Positions 4,564-53,173 of a stretch of DNA of 64,000 nucleotides are shown piece by piece (the stretch's first letter is position 1; every line of letters begins with the position of its first letter). Under the pieces are notes generated by a model. That model was not told the DNA's origin and did no database searches. It saw only the letters and a list, made by a program, of their open reading frames with translations. Location: the NCBI GenBank assembly GCA_028687995.1, contig JAQTZA010000004.1, forward strand, positions 62,001 to 126,000, written 5' to 3'. This stretch comes from Bacteroidales bacterium (lineage in GTDB: Bacteria; Bacteroidota; Bacteroidia; Bacteroidales; UBA7332). The translations under genes were made by a program, and so were the position numbers.

Positions 4564-6462
4564 ATGATACCAAAACATATAAAAAGACAAGCCTTTGACA
4601 AAGTTTTGAGTTTACCGTTTTTAGGTAACTATAATCAGAATGACGGAATTGTAAGTTTTCTCGGAAAAATATGGGATTTACGTTCAATGCCCTCTGAAGA
4701 TTCTAGATATAAAGATGCAGAAGGTGATGCATATCAACATTTAGTGAATAATGATGACTGGACAATTGTAGATACTTTTCTTAATAGGTTTAGATTAATT
4801 GATGGTGAAGAAAAGTTCTTTATTACATTTGTTGAATTAGTTGTATCACCTGAAGTTCGTTTAAACAAGGATGACATAGAATTATATGTTGTTAGTTTAA
4901 ATAGTATATTATCGCAAGCAACTCTTAAACTAGTTGTTACTGATTATTTTGAAAATCTTCCTATATACAAAATTAAGGAAGGGTTAGACGCAATAAGCTT
5001 ACCTGCAAACATAATTGCAAATTCAATTCCATTTTATACGGTAAACTATAAAGGAGAAAGAAAATATCCTTGTTTTCAATTGTCTTTCAGAGATTGGGAT
5101 GATTATGGGACTAAAAGTAAATTTTTTCTCAGTTACGGTGTAAGTGAAAATAACTTCGAATATATAGGTGATTTAAAAATAATTAAAAAGAACGAGAGTG
5201 AAACAGTTAAAGTGTTACCAACAAATTTTGATGTATTATCAAAGGAATTTTGTTCTTTAGGTCAAAGTAACGGTTATTACAATAAAATAAAATCATTATT
5301 TGGGAATAAATATCAAAGTATTTTACTTGCATTGAGAGATTCAGCCTTATTCCCAAAGATTGCTGAAGAATTTGAAAATGATGGAAGATTTATAAACTCA
5401 TTAATTCGATTAAATACAGCAGAAAAAACCTTCCGTACAGTAAGATTTGAGTTAGCTGGAATAAATTTCAACGAAAGGTTTAGGTTCAATTATAATATAA
5501 ATCTACCTTATGCCTCTAATAATATAAACCTAAGTTTTCATTTTGAAGAAAATCTCAATTGGAATACAAACAGAGTATATGCATTAATTGGGAAAAACGG
5601 CTCTGGGAAAACAACTTTTCTAAGTGCTTTAGCAAATGAACTTTCTCTACCCGAATCAAAAAATATCAGTCCGCACAAACCTTTGTTTGCAAAGATATTT
5701 ACAATCTCATATAGTTTTTTTGACCATTTTAGAGTCCCTGAGCCTAATCTTGCCTATAACTATTCTTATTGTGGTTTAAAAAAAAGCGATGGAATTTGGC
5801 TTACTGAAATTGAACTAAAACAGCGTTTTTTTGAATCAGTTGACATTATAAAAAAGAGAGAACTTAACCGTGATTGGTATAAAACTTTAAAATCATTTCT
5901 AACCGAAGATTTATTGGGAATCGTTTTTAACGATGATCAAGAATTTGATGCTAATAAATTCACTGATTTTTATAAACAATTGAGTTCAGGACAGAACATT
6001 TTATTATTTGTTCTGACTGAGGTTATTGCGCAAATTAGATTTAATTCATTAATTCTTTTTGATGAACCAGAAACACATTTACACCCAAATGCTATAAGCC
6101 AATTAATGAATACAATTTTTAAACTGACTGAAAAGTTTGAATCATTTTGTATTATTGGTACTCATTCACCATTAGTTGTTCAAGAAATTCCGTCTCGGAA
6201 TGTAATTATTATTGAAAGAACTGAAAACACAGCGCAAGTTCGACACCTTGAACAAGAATCATTTGGCGAAAATTTAACTGTTATCACAGAAGAAGTTTTT
6301 GGACGAAGAGATATAAATAAATACCATTCTACATTATTAAAAAATATGATTTTAAATGGTAAATCGTATGACGATATTATTTCTCATATTGAAACAGATG
6401 AAGTGCCAATTAGTTTAAATCTAAGGTTATTCATAAAAGCCTTAATTCAACAAAAGCAATGA
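4564..6462 (+). CDS. AAA/ABC-type ATPase of a Septu-like defence pair (PtuA-like)
   Basis: The 632-residue protein has an ABC-class ATPase core: Walker A GKNGSGKT at 343-350, a signature-like LSSGQN at 473-478, Walker B ILFDEPETHLHP with D500/E501, and a switch histidine in GTHSP (H534). This is the single-chain SMC/RecF-like architecture of PtuA and OLD-family ATPases, without a TOPRIM domain. The first 300 residues are unusual: a stretch around 70-130 (FLNRFRLIDGEEKF, then FVELVVSPEVR) resembles the AbiJ N-terminal domains found in abortive-infection proteins. That likeness is from memory and is unverified. The stop overlaps the start of the HNH gene by four bases (ATGA), so the two are translationally coupled. 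The region is clearly more AT-rich than nadE or the ligase gene on either side, suggesting transfer. No recognisable promoter precedes it. Confidence 0.8.
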   Translation: MIPKHIKRQAFDKVLSLPFLGNYNQNDGIVSFLGKIWDLRSMPSEDSRYKDAEGDAYQHLVNNDDWTIVDTFLNRFRLIDGEEKFFITFVELVVSPEVRLNKDDIELYVVSLNSILSQATLKLVVTDYFENLPIYKIKEGLDAISLPANIIANSIPFYTVNYKGERKYPCFQLSFRDWDDYGTKSKFFLSYGVSENNFEYIGDLKIIKKNESETVKVLPTNFDVLSKEFCSLGQSNGYYNKIKSLFGNKYQSILLALRDSALFPKIAEEFENDGRFINSLIRLNTAEKTFRTVRFELAGINFNERFRFNYNINLPYASNNINLSFHFEENLNWNTNRVYALIGKNGSGKTTFLSALANELSLPESKNISPHKPLFAKIFTISYSFFDHFRVPEPNLAYNYSYCGLKKSDGIWLTEIELKQRFFESVDIIKKRELNRDWYKTLKSFLTEDLLGIVFNDDQEFDANKFTDFYKQLSSGQNILLFVLTEVIAQIRFNSLILFDEPETHLHPNAISQLMNTIFKLTEKFESFCIIGTHSPLVVQEIPSRNVIIIERTENTAQVRHLEQESFGENLTVITEEVFGRRDINKYHSTLLKNMILNGKSYDDIISHIETDEVPISLNLRLFIKALIQQKQ

Positions 6463-7602: not shown

Positions 7603-9252
7603 ATGGTCAACAAATTTCTGAAACAGACAACGTTCACTTCGCAAGAAGATTTTGTAAAAAATTTCAAAGTAAATATTCCTGAAAATTTCAATTTCGGATA
7701 CGATATAGTCGATGAATGGGCAAAAACAGAACCCCACCGCAAAGCACTCTGCTGGACGAACGATCACGAGCATCGTGATTTCACATTTGCCGACATCAAA
7801 GAAAAAAGCGATCAAACGGCAGCCTACTTTCAATCTTTAGGCATTGAAAAAGGCGATATGGTGATGCTGATTTTGAAGCGACGGTTCGAATTTTGGTTTT
7901 CGATCATTGCTCTCCATAAAATTGGTGCCGTTTGCATTCCGGCCACACACCTATTGACAGAAAAAGATATTGTTTACAGAAACAATGCCGCCGACATCAA
8001 AATGATCGTGACCGTGGGGGATGACGAAGTGATTCAGCACATCAACAACTCGGTAGCCGATTCACCTACGTTGAAACAAATTGTCTCCATCGGGCCCAAA
8101 ATTCCTGAAGGATGGGGCGATTTTCATAAAGGAATTAATGAAGCTAAACCGTTTGTTCGTCCCGATTATGAGATTTCGAACGACGATATATCTTTGCTCT
8201 ATTTCACCTCGGGCACTACCGGAAATCCGAAAATGGTCGTTCACGACTTCACCTATCCATTGGCACACATTATTACCGCATCCTATTGGCACAATGTAGG
8301 CAAAGAGAGTTTGCATCTAACCCTTGCCGACACCGGTTGGGGGAAAGCCGTTTGGGGAAAGCTCTACGGACAATGGATTGCCGGATGCAATGTATTTGTA
8401 GATGATTTTGAGAAATTTAATCCGGTGGAAGTGTTACACAAAATCGAGAAATATCAAATCACTTCGTTTTGTGCGCCACCGACCGTTTTTCGGTTTATGA
8501 TTCGGGAAGATTTAACGAGATTCAAACTCTCTTCTCTCCAATATTGCACCATAGCCGGCGAAGCGCTGAATCCCAAAGTGTATGAAGAATTCCTGAAAAT
8601 CACTGGAATAAAATTGATGGAAGGTTTTGGGCAAACTGAAACGACATTGCTTATCGGCACCTATCCGTGGGTGATTCCAAAACCCGGTTCCATGGGAATT
8701 GCGAATCCACAATACGACATTGATCTCATTTTGTCGGATGGAAGTAAAGCGAAAGCCGGCGAAGAGGGACAAATTGTGATCCGATTATCAGACAAAAAAA
8801 CGCTTGGATTATTCAAAGAGTATTATCGTGACGAAGAACGCACACAAGAAGCGATTCACGACGGATTATACTACACTGGAGATGTGGCCACTCGCGACGA
8901 AGATGGCTATTTTTGGTTCATTGGCAGAGCTGACGATTTAATCAAAAGTTCGGGATACAGAATTGGGCCATTCGAAGTGGAAAGTGCATTGATGACACAT
9001 CCTGCTGTTGTGGAGTGTGCTGTGACTGGTGTGCCCGATGAAGTGCGCGGACAAGCGGTGAAAGCAACCATCGTTTTAGCAAAAGAGTACAAAGAAAAAG
9101 CCGATCACCACTTAGAACGCGAACTTCAGGATCACGTGAAACACGTAACGGCGCCTTACAAATATCCACGTATTATTGAGTTTGTGGAGGCATTACCCAA
9201 AACCATTAGCGGAAAAATTAGACGGGTGGAAATTCGTGAAAACCATAAATAA
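7603..9252 (+). CDS. AMP-forming acyl-CoA synthetase (short/medium-chain acyl-CoA ligase type)
   Basis: The enzyme activates a carboxylic acid with ATP to an acyl-AMP and then forms the CoA thioester. The 549-residue product carries the ANL superfamily motifs: the phosphate-binding loop YFTSGTTGNPK from residue 200, the GFGQTET motif, YYTGD and the hinge motif GRADDLIKSSGYRIGPFEVE, and the C-terminal adenylation lysine K538 in KTISGKIRR. The overall pattern resembles medium-chain (ACSM-type, butyryl-CoA) ligases more than acetyl-CoA synthetase; the exact substrate is not readable from sequence. The ATG at 7603 (MVNKFLKQTTF) is preferred over an upstream TTG at 7579. A dehydrogenase gene follows 12 bases downstream in the same direction, so they probably share a transcript. 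Confidence 0.9.
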   Translation: MVNKFLKQTTFTSQEDFVKNFKVNIPENFNFGYDIVDEWAKTEPHRKALCWTNDHEHRDFTFADIKEKSDQTAAYFQSLGIEKGDMVMLILKRRFEFWFSIIALHKIGAVCIPATHLLTEKDIVYRNNAADIKMIVTVGDDEVIQHINNSVADSPTLKQIVSIGPKIPEGWGDFHKGINEAKPFVRPDYEISNDDISLLYFTSGTTGNPKMVVHDFTYPLAHIITASYWHNVGKESLHLTLADTGWGKAVWGKLYGQWIAGCNVFVDDFEKFNPVEVLHKIEKYQITSFCAPPTVFRFMIREDLTRFKLSSLQYCTIAGEALNPKVYEEFLKITGIKLMEGFGQTETTLLIGTYPWVIPKPGSMGIANPQYDIDLILSDGSKAKAGEEGQIVIRLSDKKTLGLFKEYYRDEERTQEAIHDGLYYTGDVATRDEDGYFWFIGRADDLIKSSGYRIGPFEVESALMTHPAVVECAVTGVPDEVRGQAVKATIVLAKEYKEKADHHLERELQDHVKHVTAPYKYPRIIEFVEALPKTISGKIRRVEIRENHK

Positions 9253-45189: not shown

Positions 45190-47253
45190 ATGCCTCTAAA
45201 CATTCTCCAATACGAGTCCGACATTTGGTCGTCTGCCGATTCTTTACGCTCCGCAGGTCTGAAACAGAGCGATTTTCCAAAATATATGATGCCATTTTTT
45301 GCCTTGCGTATGGTCGAAAGCCGTTTGATCAGGGAGCATAAACGACTGTCCGACGAGTTTGGTAAATCGGAAAACAACACCGATGATTATATCGAATACT
45401 TCAAAACAGCGGGTCTTGGCTACAACGAATATGTGATTCGACAAAACAAGAAGTTGAGTGATATTTGCGCCAACGATAAAACATTCGAATCTGACTTTAA
45501 AGAATATCTCGGAGCTTTCGACACCGAAACCCGCCATTTATTAGGGGTAGACAAGGGTAACGACGAGGAAAAATACCTCGATATTTCGGGTGTATGTGGC
45601 ATTCTAAGAGCTAAGAAAATTCTGTTTTCTATTGTACAAGGATGGAGTAAAATTGATTTAGAGCCATTCGATAACTCCGAAATTACAACCCTCGAAGAAC
45701 ATATCAAACGCAAATGGGCCGATATTTCGGCTGAAACAGCAGGGGAACAATATACACCCGATGATATTATTGGGCTGATTTCAGATATAGTAGCTTCCAA
45801 AATTCAGGATAACGAAGAATTTCTTACCCTTTATGATCCTACTTCGGGCGGTGGAAACTTACTTTTTGGCATTGAAGACAAGCTCAACACCAAAACCCGC
45901 AGACCGATTAAAACGCACGGCATGGACTGGAATTCGTCACTCTATGCACTGGCTAAAATCGAAAGTCGTTTCCGAATCGACTCTCAGATTGAATATGGGA
46001 ATACACTTACCGATACAAAATTTATTGATAAAACATTTGATGTAATTGTTGCCAATCCTCCTTATGGTGTGGATTGGAAAGATTACCGAAAAGCCATTGA
46101 AACCGACAAAACGGGTCGTTTCGTGGCCCTGCCTTCCATTTCAGACGGACAATTATTATTCGATCAACACATTGTGTATCATTTAGATAACGATGGGATT
46201 GCCGTGGTAGTAAACAACGGTTCTTCGCTCTTTAGCGGCGATGCCGGTAGTGGCGAAAGCACCATTCGGAAGTACTTTTTTGATAAAGACTGGGTGGAAG
46301 CCATTATACAAATGCCTACCGATGAGTTTTTCAATACTGGCATATACACCTATTTGTGGGTTTTCAACAAAAACAAACCCACTGAACGAAAAGACAAAAT
46401 CATACTGATTGACGGTAGTAGTAAATATGTACATTTGAAGAAAAGCAAGGGTAAGAAACGCCGTGAAATGAGTGAGGACAACCGAGCCGAGATTATCGAA
46501 GCGTTGGTTGATTTTGAAGACAACGATTTTGCGCGGGTGTTCGACAAATGGCATTTCTATTTCAACAAGCAATCCATACTGTTGACCAACGTGGATAGTG
46601 AAGGTAAATTTATTGAAGAAAAAATCAAACTAAAACCCACCCGAATCACTCAAACAGGCGAAGATGGAATTTTTGAGCTATCTACTTTTGAGTTAAGCAG
46701 CAGTAGTGAAGGCTTCACTTCAAGTGAAACCCTCACTTTGACCGAATACTACGAAGCCACCATAGCACCCGCTATCAATGCATTCGATTACAAAGAAAAT
46801 CATTTAGTGATTGAAGCAAATGGCAAATATTATTTTTTCAACAAAGACGAGGAAACCATAGTACAGACGGGGCATGCCCCGTCTCAAAATGATGCCACAG
46901 GCAAACGCCTCGGATGTGGAAAAATACAAATTAAATCGACCTTCAAAAAAGCCACCAAAACCGCCGATGCCAAATACAGCATTACGGTAGAGCTTGTTCA
47001 AGACACACAAAAAGATTACGAAATTATCGCTTATTCGCCCAACGAGGAAGAAAACAGAGCCAACATTGCCGCTTTTATGACAAAGTATGTAACTCGTCCG
47101 TTTGAATATCTTGACAACACAGTGGGTGTAGAAATCAACTTCAACAAGGTCTTCTACCAACCAGAAAAGCTGGAGAAGATTGAAGATATTCTTTCTGATT
47201 TGAAACAACTTGAACACGATTTATCAACCCTCGAAAGCGCTCTTTCCTTATGA
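45190..47253 (+). CDS. hsdM: Type I restriction-modification system N6-adenine methyltransferase subunit
   Basis: HsdM methylates adenine in the target site using S-adenosylmethionine and forms the M2S core of the enzyme. The 687-residue product has a helical N-terminal region (about 1-170) and then TPDDIIGLISDIVA. The SAM-binding motif I DPTSGGGNLL starts at D216, and the catalytic motif IV NPPY is at 289-292. The C-terminal third is unusual: an in-frame 33-bp palindromic element encodes SEGFTSSETLT at 506-516, and a second 20-bp palindrome at 46865-46884 encodes part of TGHAPSQN. Both lie in a poorly conserved linker region after the methylase core. The stop overlaps the hsdS start (ATGA). 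Confidence 0.93.
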   Translation: MPLNILQYESDIWSSADSLRSAGLKQSDFPKYMMPFFALRMVESRLIREHKRLSDEFGKSENNTDDYIEYFKTAGLGYNEYVIRQNKKLSDICANDKTFESDFKEYLGAFDTETRHLLGVDKGNDEEKYLDISGVCGILRAKKILFSIVQGWSKIDLEPFDNSEITTLEEHIKRKWADISAETAGEQYTPDDIIGLISDIVASKIQDNEEFLTLYDPTSGGGNLLFGIEDKLNTKTRRPIKTHGMDWNSSLYALAKIESRFRIDSQIEYGNTLTDTKFIDKTFDVIVANPPYGVDWKDYRKAIETDKTGRFVALPSISDGQLLFDQHIVYHLDNDGIAVVVNNGSSLFSGDAGSGESTIRKYFFDKDWVEAIIQMPTDEFFNTGIYTYLWVFNKNKPTERKDKIILIDGSSKYVHLKKSKGKKRREMSEDNRAEIIEALVDFEDNDFARVFDKWHFYFNKQSILLTNVDSEGKFIEEKIKLKPTRITQTGEDGIFELSTFELSSSSEGFTSSETLTLTEYYEATIAPAINAFDYKENHLVIEANGKYYFFNKDEETIVQTGHAPSQNDATGKRLGCGKIQIKSTFKKATKTADAKYSITVELVQDTQKDYEIIAYSPNEEENRANIAAFMTKYVTRPFEYLDNTVGVEINFNKVFYQPEKLEKIEDILSDLKQLEHDLSTLESALSL
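46705..46737. repeat. In-frame 33-bp palindromic element, copy 1 (inside hsdM)
   Basis: AGTGAAGGCTTCACT, a 3-base loop, then AGTGAAACCCTCACT: two 15-base arms that are inverted copies at 13 of 15 positions. It starts exactly on a codon boundary (codon 506) and adds 11 codons without a stop. A near-identical copy sits in hsdS. Confidence 0.85.
46865..46884. repeat. Perfect 20-bp palindrome inside hsdM
   Basis: AGACGGGGCATGCCCCGTCT is its own reverse complement and is far more GC-rich than its surroundings. It is read through in frame. It looks like a REP-type palindrome inserted in a coding region. Confidence 0.8.
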
Positions 47254-48599
47254 AGCAATACGACAAATACAAACCTTCGGGGATAGAGTGGTTGGGAGAA
47301 ATTCCAGAGCATTGGGAAGTATTGAGGGTGAAAGATTTATTTCTACAAATTAATGATAGCAGTGCCGACTTGAAGGAAGACACATACGTTCCATTGGAAA
47401 ATATTGAATCTTTTACTGGTCGATTGATTAAAAGAGTTTCAAACGAAAATGGAGAAGATACCACTTTGTTTAAGACTGGCGATATCTTACTTAATAAATT
47501 AAGACCATATTTAGCGAAAGTACTACTTGCTGTATTTGATGGAGGTGTTAGTGGTGAAGTTATAGTTTACAGGACACTCAATAAGAACAAAAATAGAATT
47601 AATAGCAAATATTATTTTTATAGATTTTTATCTCAGGGATTTATTTCAAAAATAAACTCTATTACAGATGGCGTTAAGATGCCTAGATCAAATCCTAATA
47701 AAATTTTTGCACTCAACATTCAAAGCCCATTATTCAAAGAACAAACCGCAATTGCCAACTACCTTGACACCAAAACTACTGCCATTGACCGTAAAATAGA
47801 ACTTCTTACAGCCAAAGCCGATAAGTACAAAGCCTTGCGCCGTAGCTTGATAAACGAAACGGTATGCCGTGGTATCCCTTCCAGTGAGGGCTTCACTCAA
47901 AGTGAAACCCTCACTAAGATGAAAGACAGTGGCATTGAGTGGATTGGAATGATGCCTGAGCATTGGGAGGTGAAAAGATTGAAATTACTTGGAAATATTG
48001 AAACAAGTTCTGTGGACAAAAAAATAATCGAAGAGGAAGCTATTGTAAAACTCGTAAACTATACAGATGTTTATGGGAATAACACAAAAGAGATATGGAA
48101 CAGTGATGATTATATGATTGTCAGCGCAAATAATAAGCAAATTAAATCTAAGAGATTAAGGCAAGGAAATGCTTTATTTACTCCAAGCTCGGAAACTATT
48201 GCAGACATTGGTGTTTCCGCTGTTATTATGGAAGATCTAGTGAATACATTGTATAGCTACCATATTCTCAGATTTGTTTTTAAGAGAAATATTGATTTGT
48301 TGTTTAAAAAATATCTATTAAATAATGACATCGTTCAGTATTATTTTAGCAAATCTGCCACTGGGACAACTAGGAAAATACTAGGACTTAATACATTTTG
48401 GAATTTGCCTATAATCTTGCCACCTCTTAATGAGCAAATTTTAATTGGAAAATACCTAAATGAAAAAACCATACTAATTGACAGTATATTAGTAAATATT
48501 AGTACGCAAATCAGCAAGCTTACTCAACTCCGGAAAACATTGATCAATGATGTGGTAACGGGGAAGATAAAAGTAACAGAAGATTCTCTGCAAATATAA
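47250..48599 (+). CDS. hsdS: Type I restriction-modification specificity subunit
   Basis: HsdS recognises the bipartite DNA target and holds HsdM and HsdR. The 449-residue product shows the expected twofold layout. Each half starts with a conserved block (YKPSGIEWLGEIPEHWEVLR near residue 5; KDSGIEWIGMMPEHWEVKR near 226), then a target-recognition domain, then a helical spacer (FKEQTAIANYLDTKTTAIDRK; LNEQILIGKYLNEKTILID). The in-frame palindromic element encodes SEGFTQSETLT at 212-222, exactly in the linker between the first spacer helix and the second half, replacing the usual short variable linker. The start overlaps the hsdM stop by four bases. Confidence 0.93.
   Translation: MKQYDKYKPSGIEWLGEIPEHWEVLRVKDLFLQINDSSADLKEDTYVPLENIESFTGRLIKRVSNENGEDTTLFKTGDILLNKLRPYLAKVLLAVFDGGVSGEVIVYRTLNKNKNRINSKYYFYRFLSQGFISKINSITDGVKMPRSNPNKIFALNIQSPLFKEQTAIANYLDTKTTAIDRKIELLTAKADKYKALRRSLINETVCRGIPSSEGFTQSETLTKMKDSGIEWIGMMPEHWEVKRLKLLGNIETSSVDKKIIEEEAIVKLVNYTDVYGNNTKEIWNSDDYMIVSANNKQIKSKRLRQGNALFTPSSETIADIGVSAVIMEDLVNTLYSYHILRFVFKRNIDLLFKKYLLNNDIVQYYFSKSATGTTRKILGLNTFWNLPIILPPLNEQILIGKYLNEKTILIDSILVNISTQISKLTQLRKTLINDVVTGKIKVTEDSLQI
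47883..47915. repeat. In-frame 33-bp palindromic element, copy 2 (inside hsdS)
   Basis: AGTGAGGGCTTCACT, CAA, then AGTGAAACCCTCACT; the arms match at 14 of 15 positions. It begins at codon 212 of hsdS, again exactly in frame, and differs from the hsdM copy at only a few bases, one in the arm and the rest in the loop. Confidence 0.85.
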
Positions 48600-48676: not shown

Positions 48677-49807
48677 ATGAACATTGGTAGCTTTACATCT
48701 GGAAAACACATTCAACGGATTCAGTACAAGAGTTTTGAACCCAATATTATCGATATACCATGGCAGATAGATCATCCAGAATTGTCGTATTTATTAAGTC
48801 AGGCCGATCGCAAATTGGGTGAGTTGAATGCCTTCTCACAATTAATACCCGATGTGGATTTTTTTATAAAAATGCACGTATTGAAAGAAGGTACTACGAG
48901 TAGCAAAATTGAAGGTACGCAAACGAACATTGACGATGCTGTTCGCAAGGAAGAGTATATACAGCCCGAAAAGCACGATGACTGGCAGGAAGTGCAAAAC
49001 TACGTGCAGGCAATGAACGAAGCCATGCAGAAACTTCCTGAACTGCCTATAAGTAACAGATTATTGAAACAAACACATAAGACTTTGTTGCAGGGTGTAA
49101 GAGGGACTCACAAACTCCCTGGCGAGTTTCGTAACAGTCAAAACTGGATTGGAGGCAGTAGCATTGCCGATGCCACGTTCATTCCTCCCCACCAAGATAG
49201 CGTTTTGGATTTAATGTCCGATTTAGAGCATTTTCTTAACAATATCAACGAGCCTGTACCCCATTTAATAAAAATCGGAATAGCTCATTATCAATTCGAA
49301 ACCATACACCCATTTCTCGATGGAAATGGACGTATTGGTCGCTTGCTTATTACATTGTATTTGGTAAGTAACGGGCTATTGAACAAACCAACATTGTATC
49401 TGTCAGACTTTTTTGAACGTAACAAACCACTTTATTACGACAATCTTACAAGAGTTCGTACACACAACGATTTAACCCAATGGCTCAAATTTTTTCTGGA
49501 AGGTATTCGTAGTACTTCCGAAAGTTCTATTCAAACCTTTAAAGACATTATTGCTTTGAGAAGTAGTTTGGAAAACAAAATTATTTCATTGGGTAAAAAA
49601 CAGGCTCTGGCAAAATCCTTCTTGCAATTTCTCTATGGCGAACCGATTTCAACAGCGAATTTGGTAGCTACAGCTTTAAACATCAATAATGCAACAGCTG
49701 TCAGATTAATCGATGACTTTGTTCGATTAGGTATTTTGATAGAAGTAACAGGTTTTAAACGAAACCGCATTTTCGCCTTTGATGATTATATTAAACTATT
49801 TAGATAA
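48677..49807 (+). CDS. Fic-family AMP-transferase (class II, self-inhibited) in the restriction operon
   Basis: The 376-residue protein has the Fic active-site motif HPFLDGNGRIGR (H211-R222). Fic enzymes usually transfer AMP to hydroxyl side chains of target proteins. An N-terminal inhibitory helix motif S-x3-E-G is visible (S75 to E79-G80 in TSSKIEGTQ), as in class II Fic proteins, so it is probably kept inactive until triggered. The C-terminal 60 residues form a winged helix (ISTANLVATALNINNATAVRLIDD), suggesting DNA binding. It lies between hsdS and hsdR, 77 bases after hsdS and 12 bases before hsdR, with its own promoter and a dyad. Autoregulation through the winged helix is inferred. The AMPylation target is unknown. 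Confidence 0.9.
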   Translation: MNIGSFTSGKHIQRIQYKSFEPNIIDIPWQIDHPELSYLLSQADRKLGELNAFSQLIPDVDFFIKMHVLKEGTTSSKIEGTQTNIDDAVRKEEYIQPEKHDDWQEVQNYVQAMNEAMQKLPELPISNRLLKQTHKTLLQGVRGTHKLPGEFRNSQNWIGGSSIADATFIPPHQDSVLDLMSDLEHFLNNINEPVPHLIKIGIAHYQFETIHPFLDGNGRIGRLLITLYLVSNGLLNKPTLYLSDFFERNKPLYYDNLTRVRTHNDLTQWLKFFLEGIRSTSESSIQTFKDIIALRSSLENKIISLGKKQALAKSFLQFLYGEPISTANLVATALNINNATAVRLIDDFVRLGILIEVTGFKRNRIFAFDDYIKLFR

Positions 49808-49819
49808 ACTACATCCCTC

Positions 49820-52800
49820 ATGCACGAACTCGATTTACAAGGTGGCTACCTGCTTAATTTTCTTTGCTCTGCCGAGGGTTTGGGCTACAAGGAAGTAACA
49901 GCCAATACCGTTTCTGAGGATTATGTGATTGAAGAAGACTTGAAAGCGTTTCTATCCGAAACTTCGTTCAATCAGGCAAATTACCGAAAATTACTTCGTA
50001 AGTACGGCAATGATGAAAAAGAATTGTTTGCGGAGTTGATTCAATTTCTTTTGGATCGCATAAAGTCGAGTGCCAACATGGCTTTATTCATTAATAACAA
50101 TAAGAATTTCACCTTTCAGGGACTTACATTCACGCTTTATGCTCCAAGTGGCTCAGAGCTGCAAGGTGATAAAGATTTCAAAGAGAACATTTTCAGCGTA
50201 GTGCAAGAATTGCCTTATAAATATAAACACGACGGGAAAATACTATTTTCATTTCGTCCCGATTTGACTTTCTTTCTGAATGGGTTTTATTTGGGTTATT
50301 CTGAATTGAAGAGCAATTGGAACAATCAGGATGCCCGCAAAAGCGGACGTTCAAAAGTAACCAACGATTACCGATGTGCGGTGGAAGCTTATCTAAGAAT
50401 TGCCAATGGCAATGATGTTTCGCAAACCATACGCCGTAGCTTTCTCCGTATTTTCGATAAAGCCATACACATTACTACCACCGATATTCAAGATACGTAT
50501 GTATTAAGAAATACTGCTCCTTTATTCGACGAAATCAAAGCTGCTGTTACCACCAACTTTGATTTTGAACAATACCAACGGGCTATTCTTAAAGTATTCA
50601 AAGCTTATCCCCTCCGAAACCCACAAGCTTCGCAAACCGATCTATTTGAAGAAGTTTTCAGGGCACTATATTCTAAACGGATGATTGAAAAGGAAATACT
50701 TTATTACAATTTCCTTGAACGTGAATTGGTGGTTACTGGCAAAGGAAAGAAAGAGTATAAACACAACGATGGGCGTTTGATTTCACCCCGTCCAAAACAA
50801 AAGTTTGGAGCAGATAAAATAGTGGATAAAATAGCTGAATTTATTGAGCACGAAAAAGAACCCGATTACTTTATCAAAAAACTGGAAGCTGAGCTTCGTG
50901 CGAAAGGTGCAAGCGAATCTAAGATTCAGGAGTTGGTAGGTAAACGTCTTAAATATCAGAATAATAAGAATGTGTATTCGTTGTTATTGCAATACGCAGC
51001 GGGCTTTGGCAAAAGTAATATCATTGGCTGGACAGCTCTCCAGTTGAAAGATATGCACGACGAGCACGGCAAGTTTATCTACGATAAAATATTGATTGTA
51101 GTGGATAGGTTGCAACTCCGTGACCAGTTAGATACGATGCTGCATAATATGAACATTCAGAAAGGAATGTTTATTGAAGCACATGATAAAACTAGCTTTA
51201 AAAAAGCGTTGAGCAGTTCAGAGCGTATTGTAGTGGTCAATATTCAAAAATTCTCTGCTGTTACCAGCAAAGACAACGCCACAACCAATCAGTTTATGGA
51301 TGAAGCAGCTATTGCAAAATTGGCTTCACTGAGGGTTTGTTTCATTATTGATGAAGTTCATAGAAGTAATTCAGGCGACCAGCATGAAGATATGGTTTCG
51401 CTGTTTGACGAGCTGCAAAGCACATTCGACAACAGCGATCAATACAAAACGACCCGTAAGAAAAAAAATCTAATAATCGGTTTCACAGCTACGCCGAGCG
51501 ACCATACTCTGGCACGTTTTGGGGAATACAATAAATATGCAGAAGGCGAAAAACTCTGGGTGCCATTTGATAGTTACACCATGCGAGAAGCTATTAAAGA
51601 TGAATATATTTTCAACCCTTTAAATGGAGTAGTTCCTGTTTCTGCTAAAATGTTTTTTCAACTCCCTGAAAATAGATTAGCCGGTTTCGAAGGTGACACC
51701 GGCTACAGTGGAAAAAATCTGACAGAGGAAGAACTCGATACACAATATCAAATCCGCAAAGAAAAAATTTATTCAGACCCCAACAGAATTGATGCCATTG
51801 CTCATTTCGTAGTAGATAGACTGCTTTCAGCAGTTTATCACAACATACGTGGTACTGCTAAAGCGATGCTTGCCGTTTCGTCAATTTCCAATGCTATACT
51901 TTACAAAAAGAAAATCACCAAATATTACCCAGAAGCTGTTGCAGGCCAAAAGAAATACGAACGTTTTAGTGAAGCACCTATATATATCGTTTATTCAGAG
52001 CGTCAGGGCGTTGAAACTCCCAACGGATTGAATGGAGGTATCAACGAAAAACAAGTACTGCAAAACTTCAAATTGGCTAAAAACGGGTTAATCATTGTAG
52101 TTGATAAGCTACAAACTGGATTTGATGAACCCAAATTGCATACTTTGTTTTTGGACAAGGAAATAAGGGGTATCAATGCTATTCAGACTATTTCACGTGT
52201 AAATCGTATCACAAAGGATAAGAACGATTGTAAGATTGTTGATTTTTCGCACCTCAATGTAAACGTACAGAATATAAAACAAGCATTTGAGCATTTCTCC
52301 AATGTAGTAGTTTCTGACTTTGCACCATTAGAAGACGAGAAAACTTTGCTGGAATTATATAAACAGCTAAATAAGAACGATTTATTTAAAGCTCAATTCA
52401 AATTATTCAAGCAATACAGCACTGGATATACTGCCAAAAGCAAGATGATAGAAATTGAATCTGCTTTTCGGGAGTATATCAAGACTAATTTTGAAAAAGC
52501 ACAGGAATTAAAAACCAGCGTGAATAGCTATTTCAGAATTCTGAATCTCATTGAGTTTGTAATTGAATTAGATAAAAAACTATCCGAAGAATTATTTACT
52601 GAGTTTTGGCATAAATTCAGTATAATTTATCGTCAGGCAACTAAAACAACAGGTCCAGATATTGATGATGTTGAAATTTATTTCGACAACAAAATCGGAA
52701 TTACAGCACCAATTGAAGAAGAACCCAAAGGGAAACCCAAAGGCGGTTCAGGTGAACCACCTACTGGCCCGGGTTCAAAATACAATATCCTGAAAGAAAT

Positions 52801-53173
52801 AGAAAAACGGAACAAACTCGAAGAAAAGATCAAAGAACAAATCGAAGCCTTTGAAAAACTGATAGATGATTTCTTTGAATTTATTCAGAACGACATTAAC
52901 GGTAAACGACTAATTGCCAAAATCAAAAATGCAGGAAATGCATTTACTTATACCGAAAAACTTAATGATTTTAGCAAGCTGTACACCCAATATACAATCA
53001 AAAACCGTAGTAAGCTGAATACCTTCTTCCTACATGAAACTAAAGGCAATATCTCGCAGTTGTTTGATGATTTTGAAAGAAGTATAAAACGCTACAATAT
53101 GCTTTATACTGAAAATGGAATAGGAGTTATTACTATTGCTGCTGAGCAAGAAGGAATGAACAAAACCAAATGA
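49820..53173 (+). CDS. hsdR: Type I restriction-modification endonuclease/translocase subunit
   Basis: HsdR translocates DNA with ATP and cuts unmodified DNA away from the recognition site. The 1117-residue protein has the N-terminal PD-(D/E)xK nuclease (D148 in RPDLTFF; E162-L-K164 in YSELKS). The SF2 helicase core follows: Walker A-like GFGKS at 395-399, DEVH at 511-514, GFTATPSD and the C-terminal motor (ISRVNRITKDK). The C-terminal assembly region contains a Gly/Pro-rich linker (KGKPKGGSGEPPTGPGS) and a coiled coil. The length is normal. The ATG at 49820 starts 12 bases after the fic stop, so hsdR is probably co-transcribed with fic. All key residues are intact, so the system looks functional. 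Confidence 0.94.
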   Translation: MHELDLQGGYLLNFLCSAEGLGYKEVTANTVSEDYVIEEDLKAFLSETSFNQANYRKLLRKYGNDEKELFAELIQFLLDRIKSSANMALFINNNKNFTFQGLTFTLYAPSGSELQGDKDFKENIFSVVQELPYKYKHDGKILFSFRPDLTFFLNGFYLGYSELKSNWNNQDARKSGRSKVTNDYRCAVEAYLRIANGNDVSQTIRRSFLRIFDKAIHITTTDIQDTYVLRNTAPLFDEIKAAVTTNFDFEQYQRAILKVFKAYPLRNPQASQTDLFEEVFRALYSKRMIEKEILYYNFLERELVVTGKGKKEYKHNDGRLISPRPKQKFGADKIVDKIAEFIEHEKEPDYFIKKLEAELRAKGASESKIQELVGKRLKYQNNKNVYSLLLQYAAGFGKSNIIGWTALQLKDMHDEHGKFIYDKILIVVDRLQLRDQLDTMLHNMNIQKGMFIEAHDKTSFKKALSSSERIVVVNIQKFSAVTSKDNATTNQFMDEAAIAKLASLRVCFIIDEVHRSNSGDQHEDMVSLFDELQSTFDNSDQYKTTRKKKNLIIGFTATPSDHTLARFGEYNKYAEGEKLWVPFDSYTMREAIKDEYIFNPLNGVVPVSAKMFFQLPENRLAGFEGDTGYSGKNLTEEELDTQYQIRKEKIYSDPNRIDAIAHFVVDRLLSAVYHNIRGTAKAMLAVSSISNAILYKKKITKYYPEAVAGQKKYERFSEAPIYIVYSERQGVETPNGLNGGINEKQVLQNFKLAKNGLIIVVDKLQTGFDEPKLHTLFLDKEIRGINAIQTISRVNRITKDKNDCKIVDFSHLNVNVQNIKQAFEHFSNVVVSDFAPLEDEKTLLELYKQLNKNDLFKAQFKLFKQYSTGYTAKSKMIEIESAFREYIKTNFEKAQELKTSVNSYFRILNLIEFVIELDKKLSEELFTEFWHKFSIIYRQATKTTGPDIDDVEIYFDNKIGITAPIEEEPKGKPKGGSGEPPTGPGSKYNILKEIEKRNKLEEKIKEQIEAFEKLIDDFFEFIQNDINGKRLIAKIKNAGNAFTYTEKLNDFSKLYTQYTIKNRSKLNTFFLHETKGNISQLFDDFERSIKRYNMLYTENGIGVITIAAEQEGMNKTK

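Follow-up and report, generated by a model that had tools for sequence, protein, structure and literature searches.

A REP-like palindrome within the reading frames of hsdM and hsdS of a Bacteroidales genome, probably tied to a RAYT/TnpA_REP family of Bacteroidota

The Bacteroidales DNA analyzed here, a stretch of 64,000 nucleotides referred to as a whole as the window, harbors a type I restriction-modification operon in which hsdM, hsdS, and hsdR occur together (in the order hsdM-hsdS-fic-hsdR) and in which a 33-bp palindrome is found within the coding sequences of both hsdM and hsdS. The features concerned are as follows.

45190 to 47253, + strand: hsdM, type I DNA methyltransferase (N6_Mtase, HsdM_N; PADLOC MTase_I)
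46705 to 46737, + strand: 33-bp palindrome in frame in hsdM, residues 506-516 (SEGFTSSETLT), two mispairs
46865 to 46884, + strand: perfect 20-bp palindrome AGACGGGGCATGCCCCGTCT inside hsdM, unlike the 33-bp unit in sequence, single copy in its own genome
47250 to 48599, + strand: hsdS, type I specificity subunit
47883 to 47915, + strand: 33-bp palindrome in frame in hsdS, residues 212-222 (SEGFTQSETLT), one mispair
48677 to 49807, + strand: Fic-family gene (SoFic), separating hsdS from hsdR in the operon
49820 to 53173, + strand: hsdR, type I restriction subunit

An earlier note on this DNA had described the two copies as nearly identical, as starting on codon boundaries, and as encoding SEGFT(S/Q)SETLT, with the hsdS copy forming the linker between the two halves of the protein. 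Coordinates, frame, and peptide were confirmed, the copies being 91% identical, and the hsdS copy indeed constitutes the linker between the two halves, with the central conserved helix on one side and the second target-recognition domain on the other. The unit is an inverted repeat with 15-bp arms and a 3-nt loop, its mispairs being C9.A25 in the hsdS copy and A6.C28 together with C9.A25 in the hsdM copy, while folding as single-stranded DNA yielded -12.1 kcal/mol (z -6.0) for the former and -7.3 kcal/mol for the latter. The number of copies expected in the window following dinucleotide shuffling is 0, and a search of the 3.56-Mb genome returned no copy beyond the hsdM and hsdS pair.

The palindromes are retained in a second species, represented by the metagenome-assembled genome (MAG) INTA.CYC.039 (L105), whose orthologous hsdM and hsdS carry both of them at the same places. 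The hsdM orthologues share 87% amino acid and 79.6% nucleotide identity (dN/dS of 0.05), and the hsdS products differ in their target-recognition domains on both sides of a central, element-bearing region which is 87% identical. Transfer of the operon between species may be inferred, as the genes flanking the operon differ between the window and L105. Comparison with genes devoid of the element, which the earlier note had proposed, showed that element-free orthologues exist, the sequence of the element being missing from hsdM relatives of about 52-64% identity. Relative to such genes, the net gain in length is 9 amino acids in hsdS and, in hsdM, 4 amino acids in the window and 1 in L105, which implies that native codons were replaced or lost and does not fit a clean insertion of the full 33-bp unit. 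The description of the element as "inserted" is, therefore, apt insofar as a peptide was added in frame, but not in the sense of a simple insertion. The closest hsdM relative (L255, 95% identity over residues 1-482) is uninformative as to the presence of the hsdM copy because its contig ends approximately 70 nt short of the element. As regards other palindromes within hsdM, AGACGGGGCATGCCCCGTCT has no counterpart at the matching site of the L105 orthologue and occurs once in viral contigs (L253), while a hairpin candidate at 46894-46919 was dropped because similar native sequence occupies that place in the L105 orthologue.

Inside the element, the window and L105 show low synonymous divergence in both genes. 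In hsdM, two changes were counted over 7.7 sites, the gene as a whole averaging 0.68 (values as low were found in 26 of 674 test windows), and in hsdS, none over 7.3 sites (1 of 66 as low); with seven to eight sites per element, each comparison gives a nominal binomial value of about 0.02. Such values are only a hint of constraint at the DNA level, yet they would fit a reading in which the element owes its retention to a role of its DNA or RNA hairpin in the operon, whether in translation control, as a TnpA_REP site, or as a recombination joint for the swapping of hsdS target-recognition domains, the last of which would also suit the exchange of these domains on either side of the conserved center. 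We regard this reading as unlikely. Synonymous sites are very few, and the same picture would result had the element been inserted at a later date or been converted by copies elsewhere; furthermore, the center of HsdS is conserved in any case, and the stem is decaying, as judged by A6.C28 in the hsdM copy of the window and by the broken G7 pair in the hsdS copy of L105.

To establish whether the unit is found elsewhere, as the earlier note had suggested be done for this and related genomes, a 22-base pattern was applied to approximately 85,000 species genomes, in which at least 117 stretches matched. Among the 80 matches listed, all but one were labelled Bacteroidota or Chlorobiota, comprising both MAGs and isolates. 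Copies per genome ranged from 1 to 32 by this pattern, figures which represent lower bounds because the search pattern is narrow, and a reversed-pattern control returned 0 in all. The palindrome is patchy rather than general in its distribution, since an even draw of 394 other Bacteroidota genomes from across the phylum contained no match to the pattern. The unit is also present in viral contigs, and a blastn search of plasmids and phages with it returned nothing useful. In many copies T/A is added at the ends, such that the family consensus, at about 35 bp, is slightly longer than the 33-bp unit. Among 88 distinct copies, positions 6 and 28, a pair left free by the search pattern, covary (G-C in 66 and T-A, A-T, and C-G in 7 each), being paired in 87 of 88; this says nothing about other positions, most of which were fixed by the pattern. 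Pair 9/25 is usually C.A, equivalent to T.G on the opposite strand. The palindrome is thus a dispersed element which, as had been claimed, enters coding genes and adds peptide, in other genes and in other frames, and neither is the peptide fixed in all hsdM and hsdS orthologues nor is the unit confined to this locus.

Among such coding copies, those at L039:7410-7440 and L109:2616-2646 occupy in-frame positions in the genes for a DNA topoisomerase III (topB) and a CusB-type protein, respectively. The topB copy precedes the C-terminal Cys motif and is read in a frame other than that of hsdM and hsdS, and the CusB-type copy is situated between the efflux-adaptor and HMA domains.

A further HsdS linker bearing the palindrome was encountered in a congener (G396), in which AGTGAGGGCTTCACTCCAAGTGAAGCCCTCACT, the same palindrome in another frame, encodes VRASLQVKPSL and represents the single match to the pattern in that genome. 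This hsdS is a different one, sharing 31% amino acid identity with that of the window. The linkers of element-free HsdS proteins nearly all comprise 9-10 residues (one comprises 16), and those of all three element-bearing proteins, from two unrelated HsdS lineages, comprise 18. This favors the possibility that the peptide lengthens the HsdS linker, shifts the spacing of the target half-sites, and was selected as a change of specificity. Additional residues toward the middle of HsdS are also a feature of EcoR124-type repeat-length variation. The EcoR124-type repeat sits within the helical spacer, whereas the loop described here follows the helix, and no variation in repeat number was seen. The structure model of the HsdS of the window, in which the long spacer helix ends at residue 207 and residues 215-220 have a pLDDT below 50, places the element beyond that helix in a loop of low confidence. 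For HsdM, the model is poor overall, with a mean pLDDT of 57, and can be given little weight. Moreover, the palindrome has also entered hsdM, topB, and the CusB-type linker, where target spacing is irrelevant. Selection for altered specificity is accordingly considered very unlikely, and the proposal that the element tunes the HsdS target finds no support in its modelled position, in the equal linker length of the three element-bearing proteins, or in the different frame used in the congener. As that HsdS carries the palindrome in another frame, the identity of the peptide seems not to matter, and the encoded peptide is most likely without specific function.

The palindrome is physically associated with genes of the RAYT/TnpA_REP type. 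At seven loci (L044, L052, L084, L089, L094, L099, and L103), a RAYT/TnpA_REP-like gene contains it in frame as SEGFTxSETL/ALT (SEPLT in one), and at most of these, further palindromes, intact or degraded and sometimes of the AGTCAGGG type, are located close to the gene. An HUH motif is present in all seven and a YIHxNP motif in all except the truncated L044. RAYT genes of this kind were found at 10 of the 80 palindrome loci, with a palindrome copy within 60 bp in nine, and in the congener, a RAYT gene with an in-frame palindrome and palindromes on both sides lies directly upstream of hsdS. In a sample of 23 RAYT genes, gathered by protein similarity alone and without regard to palindromes, 19 harbor a strong in-frame palindrome, each time in the loop that follows the HUH motif and precedes the next helix, a position between the HUH and Y motifs; two of the 19 are neighbors with identical palindromes. 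Palindrome sequence differs widely between the sampled genes, but of 18 RAYT palindromes with an odd loop, 16 are in the phase found in hsdM and hsdS, a score reached in 0.1% of codon shuffles. These proteins, which possess the motifs MPNHFHLM and YIHxNP, are placed only weakly with TnpA_REP by family models: a RAYT profile matched Escherichia coli TnpA_REP 4ER8 at an E value of 0.008, NCBIfam REP_Tyr_transpos (NF047646) scored 45-49 bits where its cutoff is 80, and two of the proteins returned no Pfam match. The 64-kb window itself revealed no RAYT of this family, and two 195-aa Y1_Tnp proteins encoded at one locus of the same genome are only distantly related to it (23-31% identity over longer stretches).

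The association with RAYT genes bears on the likeness to Rickettsia palindromic elements (RPE) drawn by the earlier note, which holds as a functional analogy, in that a short palindrome encodes an in-frame peptide in unrelated genes. The likeness is one of behavior, and the relationship points instead to RAYT/TnpA_REP and REP-like palindromes. Given the RAYT genes linked to the palindrome and the mostly intergenic location of its copies, a Rickettsia-type element without a dedicated transposase is an extremely improbable explanation. RPE-4 and RPE-6 have already been treated as REP-type repeats by Di Nocera et al. (2013; PMC3733652).

A canonical REP is an imperfect palindrome of 20-40 bp with a small loop which flanks its cognate RAYT gene, and the unit (33-35 bp) agrees with this description. 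It departs from it at the foot of the stem, where, in place of GT[AG]G, AGTGA is found in 85 of the 88 distinct copies (GTGA being fixed by the pattern), and, as counted with the narrow pattern, in copy number, which often exceeds 100 per genome in canonical REPs. Feet in the RAYT genes sampled without the pattern are ACTCA, ACCGA, ATTCA, and AGTCA. The closest described counterpart is subclass 2.4 of the TnpA_REP/REPtrons, in which REPs flank the tnpA_REP gene and lie inside it, frame intact, between the HUH and Y motifs (Quentin et al., 2018; PMC6006769); the palindromes described here likewise flank and lie inside RAYT genes, Bacteroidetes are a main host, and the NHFH motif fits. Unlike those of subclass 2.4, however, they begin with AGTGA, AGTCA, ACCGA, or ACTCA, none is the canonical long or double-foot REP with GT[AG]G, and the Y motif (YIHQNP or YIHNNP) fits subclass 2.6 of that scheme as much as 2.4. 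Intragenic REPs which lie in frame in protein genes and are tolerated in linkers have been reported, including in replication and repair genes, by Di Nocera et al. (2013; PMC3733652), and the present palindrome appears to behave similarly, although the ends given there are GTAG or CGTC; the main text of that paper makes no mention of hsd, restriction, or topoisomerase.

It is, on these grounds, considered very probable that the 33-bp unit is a REP-like palindrome tied to a Bacteroidota RAYT/TnpA_REP family, spread by RAYTs and tolerated in loops. E. coli TnpA_REP processes single-stranded REPs, and cognate pairs co-evolve (PMC8266576). RAYT-mediated cutting and joining of single-stranded, hairpin-bearing copies would have delivered a copy to hsdM and another to the hsdS linker, both presumably in an ancestor of the operon of the window. 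With the reading frame kept and the sites lying in loops, the subunits would have remained functional and the copies would have been retained, a later transfer of the operon between species then leaving this genome with two copies and no detected RAYT of the family. Against an origin through RAYTs stand the lack of a GT[AG]G foot, the weak model matches, the loss of native codons at insertion, and the absence from the window of a RAYT of this family. A more far-reaching version, to which we assign very little probability, holds that the palindrome in hsdM and hsdS is kept at the DNA level as a RAYT processing site and that cutting at the hsdS joint promotes target-recognition-domain exchange; if true, RAYTs and type I systems would be functional partners.

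REPs within genes, including REPs that lie in frame in tnpA_REP genes themselves, have been described before (PMC3733652, PMC6006769). Searches of open-access papers, which miss most subscription journals, returned no report of this palindrome family lacking the GT[AG]G foot or of its recurrence in HsdS linkers, and these two aspects are new as far as such papers show. A link is thereby drawn between REP-like palindromes that lack the usual GT[AG]G foot and their likely transposases in Bacteroidota, and two unrelated HsdS lineages are seen to have acquired the palindrome in the same linker, though in different frames. The RAYT genes, whose palindromes vary in sequence but share one loop and mostly one frame, render TnpA_REP/REP co-evolution and REP movement testable. 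For annotation, SEGFTxSETLT-like peptides in Bacteroidota proteins are to be read as palindrome-derived loops and not as domains.

Several further observations were made at palindrome-bearing loci. A phage-like contig with the 33-bp unit (L034) carries another palindrome, AGAGACGCGAACATCGCGTCTCTAC, with close variants, in four copies:

4881-4905, 5398-5422, 8807-8831, and 8835-8859 of L034: AGAGACGCGAACATCGCGTCTCTAC-type palindromes

In the congener, the RAYT gene and hsdS are clustered with NsnA/B/C-like genes and a partial HsdR-like open reading frame (L222, contig C161), an arrangement which looks like a defence island. The RAYT frame runs stop-free into a PIF1-like helicase at L103:4249-7398 (- strand, 1050 aa) and at L089:715-2130 (+ strand, ending at the end of the locus), which suggests a RAYT-helicase fusion in these two Flavobacteriaceae MAGs. 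In Marinilabilia salmonicolor (L044:1765-3465), the RAYT gene adjoins a cas1 gene, with a copy of the palindrome between them.
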